Part shown: positions 61,803-64,000 of the stretch, in pieces
Position numbering within the stretch: position 1 is the stretch's first letter
How the letters are laid out: the number at the start of each line of letters is the position of its first letter
Translations under genes and position numbers: made by a program
Assembly (NCBI GenBank): GCA_002897115.2
Contig: BCIH01000008.1
Location: forward strand, 83,971-147,970
DNA from: Prototheca cutis
Taxonomy: Eukaryota; Chlorophyta; Trebouxiophyceae; Chlorellales; Chlorellaceae
Length of the DNA: 64,000 nucleotides
Direction: 5' to 3'
Notes under the pieces: model-generated
Seen by the model: only the letters and a program-made list of their open reading frames with translations
Databases searched by the model: none
What the model was told of the DNA's origin: nothing

Positions 61803-63515
<1,713 letters not shown>

Positions 63516-63920
63516 CGAGTTTGAGTCCGGACTGCACTGAGATGTTTGTTAACAACCACTGCGTTTGGTGCTGTAGCGGGCGGTGGAGTCTTGGTCCTGC
63601 AGGCAGCCGGGGAGGGGGAAGGCTGCGCTGCTTTCATGTGGAATGTACCAGCTTTCGTGGGCTTCATGTCAGATTCCAGCGGGTGACGAGATTCCAGCGG
63701 GTGAGGAGTCGAGGAAGGAGTTGCTTGGCCACCAGTTGGTGGGCTTCAACCCCCCTCCAAGCAGTCTGCCTCCACGGCACAGCGTTTGTAAAAGAATGTC
63801 ATTCGGCAAATTCGCGCAGAATAGGGCTTCGCAGACGCAAAACGACCAGGGCGGTGATCCACGGGAGTGCGACTCCAAATTAAACATGAGATATATCGCG
63901 CTGAAACACAAGAACAAGTC
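63516..63920. other. Intergenic stretch, PCNA 3' end to tRNA elements
   Basis: No gene is seen. No tRNA 5' half (GGCCCCATAGCTCAG or a close variant) occurs in this stretch, which matters for reading the tRNA pieces at the right edge. An AT-rich patch with GAGATATATCG lies just beyond it at 63888-63898. Confidence 0.5.
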
Positions 63921-63925
63921 TGATA

Positions 63926-64000
63926 GCTGCAGGTCAACGGTTCGAGCCCGTTTGGGGCCACTTAGCGTCTGGCCCCATAGCTCAGTTGGTTAGAGCGGCA
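63926..64000 (+). tRNA. Probable circularly permuted tRNA gene (3' half, 10-nt spacer, 5' half; truncated by window edge)
   Basis: The 3' half is 63926-63960: anticodon-stem 3' strand GCTGC (63926-63930), variable loop AGGTC, T stem AACGG / T loop TTCGAGC / CCGTT, acceptor strand TGGGGCC (63953-63959) and discriminator A. After a 10-nt spacer (63961-63970) the 5' half begins at 63971: acceptor GGCCCCA, TA, D stem GCTC, loop AGTTGGTTA, GAGC, then G and GCA, the start of the anticodon stem. The acceptor strands pair over all 7 bp, the D stem over 4, the T stem over 5, and GCA pairs with TGC of the upstream half. The B box lies upstream of the A box. The anticodon is not determined, because the 5' half runs off the window. 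Confidence 0.7.

Follow-up and report, generated by a model that had tools for sequence, protein, structure and literature searches.

Near the right edge of the window (the whole stretch of 64,000 nucleotides of Prototheca cutis DNA that was analysed), the 3' half of a tRNA lies upstream of a tRNA 5' half. Does this reversed order belong to a working gene, or is it what remains of an ordinary tRNA beside the start of another? The first-pass annotation proposed a circularly permuted tRNA gene, with a decayed ordinary copy as the rival. Our analysis of the locus, of its continuation past the window and of the rest of the genome indicates that this is, with high probability, a functional gene of the P. 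cutis nucleus, predicted from sequence, that encodes tRNA-Ile(AAU) in circularly permuted form with the junction at 37/38 (type II).

Anatomy and detection of the tRNA-Ile(AAU) locus

The features of the locus and of its neighbour are as follows:

63151..63512, + strand: neighbouring gene, two exon pieces from the end of a PCNA gene (Pfam PCNA_C at 63151-63237 and 63405-63512)
63891..63895, + strand: ATATA, a TATA-like element that precedes the tRNA 3' half by 34 nt and may act as a Pol III upstream promoter
63911..63924, + strand: end of the leader, AGAACAAGTCTGAT, presumably removed at the 37/38 junction
63925..63960, + strand: tRNA-Ile 3' half, positions 38-73 (sequence, covariance model, stem check)
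63961..63970, + strand: linker between the halves, 10 nt, CTTAGCGTCT (sequence, scanner)
63971..64000, + strand: tRNA-Ile(AAU) 5' half, positions 1-29 within the window (sequence)

The PCNA gene ends about 410 bp upstream of the tRNA 3' half and is not part of the tRNA gene. The 3' half contains the 3' strand of the anticodon stem, the variable loop, the T arm, the 3' strand of the acceptor stem and discriminator A73. Its position 10 nt upstream of the 5' half (63925-63960, 63961-63970 and 63971 onwards) is as the first-pass annotation had it, and the continuation which that annotation predicted past 64000 is found: G30 and T31 are followed by an anticodon loop, and likeness to a tRNA ends after position 37. 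The 5' half reads GGCCCCA TA GCTC AGTTGGTTA GAGC G GCAGT CTAATA, then tcgaaTTTTT, and ends at A37, equivalent to window position 64008 (C8:147978, the window being C8:83971-147970). Directly 3' of A37 lies tcgaaTTTTTcc; a Pol III-type T-run begins 5 nt past A37, and the linker has none.

The claim that the two halves fit one cloverleaf with 7/7 acceptor pairs is borne out, and beyond the edge all four stems are complete (acceptor 7/7, D 4/4, anticodon 5/5, T 5/5), pair 31:39 of the anticodon stem being T·G. The conserved bases U8, A14, R15:Y48, GG, A21, U33, A37, TTCGAGC and A73 are present. CCA is not encoded: A73 is followed by CTT in this copy and by CTC in a second copy described below. 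The locus has several features of type II genes, namely a 3' half that comes first on the same strand, a short linker, a canonical tRNA, a 37/38 junction and a T-run only after the 5' half.

The sequence CTGATA, just before the 3' half, had been likened to a tRNA-Ile(GAU) anticodon loop. This reading was rejected. The anticodon is AAU, and CTGATA is mostly leader sequence: its first five bases lie upstream of A38 and are replaced by TGGTC in the second copy.

Neither ARAGORN nor Rfam at the gathering threshold reported a tRNA in the 64-kb window. A permuted-aware search, which had been suggested as a check, detected the gene by both methods used. A permuted-tRNA covariance model gave it 73.1 bits (E 1.5e-19) when cut by the edge and 87.3 bits when complete, scores that are partly so by construction because the gene is one of the ten training sequences. 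A rule-based scanner detected exactly one permuted tRNA and zero in-order tRNAs in the window plus its continuation; on the window alone it is blank because the edge cuts off the anticodon. The scanner gave zero matches when it was run on one strand of ten versions of the window with shuffled mononucleotides (640 kb).

Permuted and in-order tRNA genes in the genome

A second permuted Ile(AAU) locus, the sole further match in the genome, is found on contig C3, also with the 3' half first and with the same 37/38 junction in the anticodon loop. The two loci are identical at 73 of 74 exon bases. The linker of copy 2, CTCGGTTCTCA, is 11 nt long and unlike that of copy 1. Identity between the copies is at the level of shuffled sequences in the linker (7/14), in upstream positions 11-60 (25/61) and in the 60 nt downstream (33/68), and exceeds that of shuffles in the last 10 nt of the leader (7/11). 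When the joined mature Ile tRNA was used as query (E<=10) in one whole-genome search, only the four halves were found, and no in-order copy.

The genome was searched over 19,886,974 bases in 23 contigs, with some short scaffolds seemingly left out; the assembly of P. cutis JCM 15793 (GCA_002897115.2) is described as 20,029,045 bases in 46 scaffolds, with 60.24% GC (PMC11302234). At least 20 complete permuted genes for 14 isoacceptors were detected, together with one degenerate copy, and at least 18 in-order genes for 11 other isoacceptors. No isoacceptor is shared between the two lists:

Permuted: Ile-AAU x2, Ala-AGC x3, Ala-UGC, Thr-AGU x2, Thr-CGU, Thr-UGU, Asn-GUU x2, Gln-CUG x2, Gly-UCC, Ser-GCU, Ser-CGA, Cys-GCA, Trp-CCA, Val-UAC
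In order: Lys-CUU x2, Arg-ACG x2, Arg-CCU, Phe, iMet, Leu-CAG x3, Leu-CAA, Leu-UAG, Asp x3, Pro-AGG x2, Pro-CGG

Linkers of the permuted genes range from 9 to 41 nt. Seven permuted duplicate pairs (Ile, Asn, Thr, Gln and three Ala pairs) match at 71-73 of 72-74 exon bases, and their flanks are mostly near shuffled identity. Exceptions are two linkers (13/13 in one Ala pair, 13/19 in Asn), two flanks (39/64 downstream in Ala-1/2, 34/57 upstream in Thr) and, in most pairs, the last 10 nt of the leader (5/12 to 9/10).

A search with Rfam RF00005, in which 63 of 246 candidates were scored, yielded 17 in-order genes over the cut-off and four weak matches. Three of the weak matches (L029-L031) are permuted genes, and none of the 20 permuted genes passes the cut-off in this genome search. 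The fourth (L028) is a weak candidate for an in-order Leu(UAG) gene with an intron (19.4 bits, below the cut-off, and no T-run within 20 nt); with L028 set aside, 17 firm in-order genes remain of the 18. ARAGORN, as run, reported none of the permuted genes and also missed the intron-bearing in-order genes L015-L021. The iMet gene (L011) was counted from ARAGORN, the scanner having missed it. An Arg(TCG) that ARAGORN placed at L055 looks spurious by eye and was excluded from the counts.

Five gapless D-arm patterns were also used. They are indifferent to the order of the halves, and two of them came from permuted genes already seen. The 29 places found comprise 17 complete permuted genes, one degenerate permuted gene, three in-order genes and eight places that are not tRNA (L048-L051, L056-L058, L060), in which the scanner finds a tRNA in neither order. 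The other three permuted genes are Ala-UGC, one of the weak Rfam matches, and two Gln genes met by chance in flanks. Because Rfam favours in-order genes and the patterns favour canonical D arms, neither ratio of permuted to in-order genes is unbiased.

The permuted covariance model was built from the two Ile genes and eight in-order tRNAs of the same genome, rearranged, and was run on 26 loci and then on 14; duplicates and L052-L060 were given to the scanner only. Among 41 matches with E<=1 in the 26-locus run, the six at 41 bits or more are permuted; half-matches to in-order tRNAs reach 27.8 bits, and the permuted Gln-1 gene, with its long linker, only 25.3. Model E-values thus mix permuted genes with half-matches, and the decision was left to the scanner and to reading of the sequences. 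Both model and scanner assume a 37/38 junction and intron-free halves, so that permuted genes with other junction types or with introns would escape both, and the uniform junction and absence of introns among the permuted genes reflect scans that see only such genes. Certain boundaries were adjusted by hand: Trp(CCA), for which the scanner had proposed a variable loop of 21 nt, and Val were re-cut (each with 4/5 anticodon-stem pairs), and the Cys 3' half was shifted by one base.

The degenerate permuted locus (L034:1448-1531, C2 ~1547192) has anticodon GGC, a 3' half 6 nt short and a T stem of 3 bp, and is probably a decaying permuted gene. Some permuted genes are close neighbours: Asn and Thr-CGU lie within about 1.4 kb on C18 (C18:44258-45700), and C10 (C10:42500-42850) has Thr-AGU and Gln-CUG on opposite strands, within about 0.35 kb.

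Pairing of the halves, predicted transcription and processing

Across the 20 permuted genes, 139 of 140 acceptor pairs and 98 of 100 anticodon-stem pairs are formed. Since the genes were partly selected by limits on this pairing (at least 6 acceptor and 4 anticodon-stem pairs), the informative part is the comparison with halves swapped between isoacceptors, which form 3.88/7 acceptor and 2.32/5 anticodon-stem pairs; the limits are passed by 8 of 366 swaps and by 20/20 own pairs. The 15:48 pair, which spans the halves and of which only R15 was used in gene selection, is G:C in 19 genes and A:T in one. The sequences of all four permuted Ala genes show G3:U70, an alanine identity element. Plain energy folding of the precursors produced the full permuted cloverleaf in 3/20 genes, the Ile gene of the window not being among them; intronless in-order tRNAs fare no better (2/9), and energy folding is therefore uninformative.

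A T-run of at least 4 T occurs within 20 nt of base 37 in all 20 permuted genes, compared with 3.4% of random window positions, and within 20 nt of base 73 in 15 of 17 in-order genes; no linker of the 20 permuted genes contains one. An upstream promoter is expected because the A and B boxes are reversed in a permuted gene (PMC3978253, section 5). Of the 20 permuted genes, 8 (L001, L029, L035, L041 (Thr), L055, L038, L012 and L045) have TATA or ATAT at -55..-30, versus 1 of 18 in-order genes and a background of 2.8% of random window positions, a difference (Fisher p 0.02) that comes from a small sample and an interval chosen after looking. At -60..-20 the counts are 9 and 1, over a background of 4.7%. 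In 11 or 12 of the 20 permuted genes there is no such motif.

The arrangement of halves at the edge of the window admits more than one explanation. One is a truncated tandem duplicate, that is, a decayed ordinary tRNA beside the beginning of an intact neighbour. In a published model, permuted genes originate by gene duplication in which the outer halves are lost (PMC3978253, section 10), and the locus may accordingly once have been a truncated tandem duplicate. As an account of the present locus, this explanation is very improbable. The first-pass annotation had regarded a T arm and acceptor strand of its own, downstream of the 5' half, as the mark of such a duplicate; the sequence past 64000 already refutes it, as no fitting T arm occurs in the 400 nt downstream. 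On the other side, the scanner looked through the 400 nt upstream and found no 5' half whose acceptor strand would fit, in agreement with what had been claimed. The same junction is shared by 20 genes of 14 isoacceptors, and the idea of a decayed copy fails because the second Ile(AAU) locus keeps the permuted boundaries with an unrelated linker and unrelated flanks.

An alternative is that the genes are permuted but dead, both loci being relics while an unseen in-order gene supplies tRNA-Ile(AAU). Such a gene, if divergent, could escape genome searches that provide lower bounds, and the degenerate L034 is a precedent for a decayed permuted copy of another tRNA. We consider this unlikely: exon identity between the two copies has been kept over diverged flanks, the T-run is kept in every permuted gene, and the search with the mature sequence finds no other match. 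It might also be thought that the halves, which are separate units in the gene, are transcribed separately and joined in trans to partners elsewhere. This we find scarcely credible, as only 10 nt separate the partner halves, no T-run lies in between, and a single T-run follows the second half.

The functional permuted gene is thus the explanation that we favour. Under it, Pol III would produce a single RNA that runs from the leader through the 3' half, the linker and the 5' half to the trailer, and this precursor would fold into a cloverleaf with its free ends in the anticodon loop. A Sen-type splicing endonuclease may then cleave after A37 and before A38, a ligase would seal 37 to 38 to yield a circle, and RNase P and tRNase Z would excise the linker at the acceptor end, followed by addition of CCA. 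Two loci encode tRNA_int_endo domains, whose best solved matches are Sen2 and Sen34, respectively. PF09511, the sole ligase family tried, has no match in the genome, a blank that carries no weight because control genomes are silent too. Apparent introns of 30-59 nt interrupt eight in-order genes out of 18 at 37/38 (Asp x3, Pro x3, Leu x2; L015-L021 and L028), which implies a working splicing pathway.

Pairing of the leader with the anticodon loop or trailer, scored with a bulge-helix-bulge-like structure in mind, is above chance for the 20 genes as a group, not for the gene of the window alone. The mean is -1.66 kcal/mol, versus -0.52 when leaders are permuted among the genes; values as low were reached by 4 of 20000 leader permutations with a 6-nt loop and a 9-nt leader, by 433 of 20000 when 4 nt of trailer were included and the leader was 10 nt long, and by 9 of 20000 when these lengths were 10 and 14. 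Against foreign leaders, the Ile leader of the window is average (rank 0.56 and 0.67 in two tabulated settings), and it forms only C32:G-3 and A35:U-6; in copy 2, the possible pairs seen by eye are C32:G-3, U33:G-4, A34:U-5 and A35:U-6. In Ser, Thr-CGU, Asn and Trp the leader matches the anticodon loop of its own gene, and the two Gln leaders pair with their own trailers, by different sequences. Leaders of Thr-AGU-1, Ala-AGC-1 and Ala-AGC-2 rank below most foreign leaders. Just before position 38, C is found at -1 in 14 of 20 leaders and T at -2 in 12 of 20.

The existence of at least 20 permuted genes suggests that much of the tRNA supply of P. cutis may be made via circular RNA. A broader proposal, which we put forward tentatively and with a little more doubt than confidence, is that the permuted layout prevails among the nuclear tRNA genes, that isoacceptors split into two non-overlapping groups, one all permuted and the other all in order, and that reversal of the A and B boxes has led the permuted group to rely instead on an upstream Pol III promoter of the TATA type. 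If this two-group reading were true, most cellular tRNA would pass through circular RNA.

Comparison with known permuted tRNA genes

The first-pass annotation was right about the permuted layout and less so about the host: P. cutis is a colourless trebouxiophyte, outside the red algal, prasinophyte and nucleomorph groups that it named. No chlorophyll-binding domain (PF00504) was found in the genome. A protein of the window, COG3, has its best relative in Auxenochlorella, with 46% identity across an alignment that covers 63% of the query.

A 2014 review lists 34 permuted tRNA genes in seven organisms, with at most 11 per organism (PMC3978253). Among the open-access papers listed, searched mostly by titles and abstracts, no report of permuted tRNA genes in Prototheca was found, and a single prior report was found for this lineage, that of Auxenochlorella in 2025. 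The genome paper of P. wickerhamii, for which tRNAscan was used and 64 tRNA genes were reported (PMC7941945), is not among the open-access papers that contain both "Prototheca" and "permuted". As far as could be read, the kind of gene is known, and the Prototheca host and the Ile isoacceptor are new to the open-access literature found; the scale of the set, at least 20 genes versus 11 in Cyanidioschyzon, may also be new. For annotation, the consequence is that permuted tRNA genes escape ARAGORN and the Rfam cut-off as run on P. cutis.

A parallel comes from a close relative, Auxenochlorella UTEX 250-A, in which permuted genes were detected after tRNAscan-SE had yielded an incomplete set (PMC12636532, PMC12633428). 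Those genes are presented in Supplementary Fig. S1 of PMC12636532; the P. cutis host differs in being non-photosynthetic. According to its authors, Auxenochlorella is readily manipulated by homologous recombination (PMC12636532). A genome with at least 20 permuted genes near such an organism makes testable how Pol III initiates with reversed A and B boxes, which requirements the endonuclease has at an open-ended junction, and how and why permutation spreads and becomes fixed.

The P. cutis genes resemble the type II genes of prasinophytes, chlorarachniophyte nucleomorphs and Cyanidioschyzon merolae in having the 3' half first and a 37/38 junction, and also in the downstream T-run, the absence of an encoded CCA and, in many cases, a TATA-like or AT-rich stretch upstream (PMC3978253, PMC4494063). 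Linkers are 5-64 nt in the type II entries of Table 1 of PMC3978253, compared with 9-41 nt in P. cutis. That table includes 8 of the 14 permuted isoacceptors of P. cutis (Gln-CUG, Thr-CGU, Thr-AGU, Ala-UGC, Ser-CGA, Ser-GCU, Asn-GUU and Cys-GCA), with Ala-UGC as type IV, whereas its junction is at 37/38 here; permuted Ile, Val, Trp, Gly(UCC), Ala(AGC) and Thr(UGU) are absent from it. In C. merolae, 11 of 43 tRNA genes are permuted, with several junction types, compared with at least 20 permuted genes in P. cutis from scans that covered 37/38 only (PMC3978253). Circular permutation is also found in archaeal tRNAs of Thermofilum pendens in the same table, but there the junction is at 59/60, CCA is encoded and introns are present.
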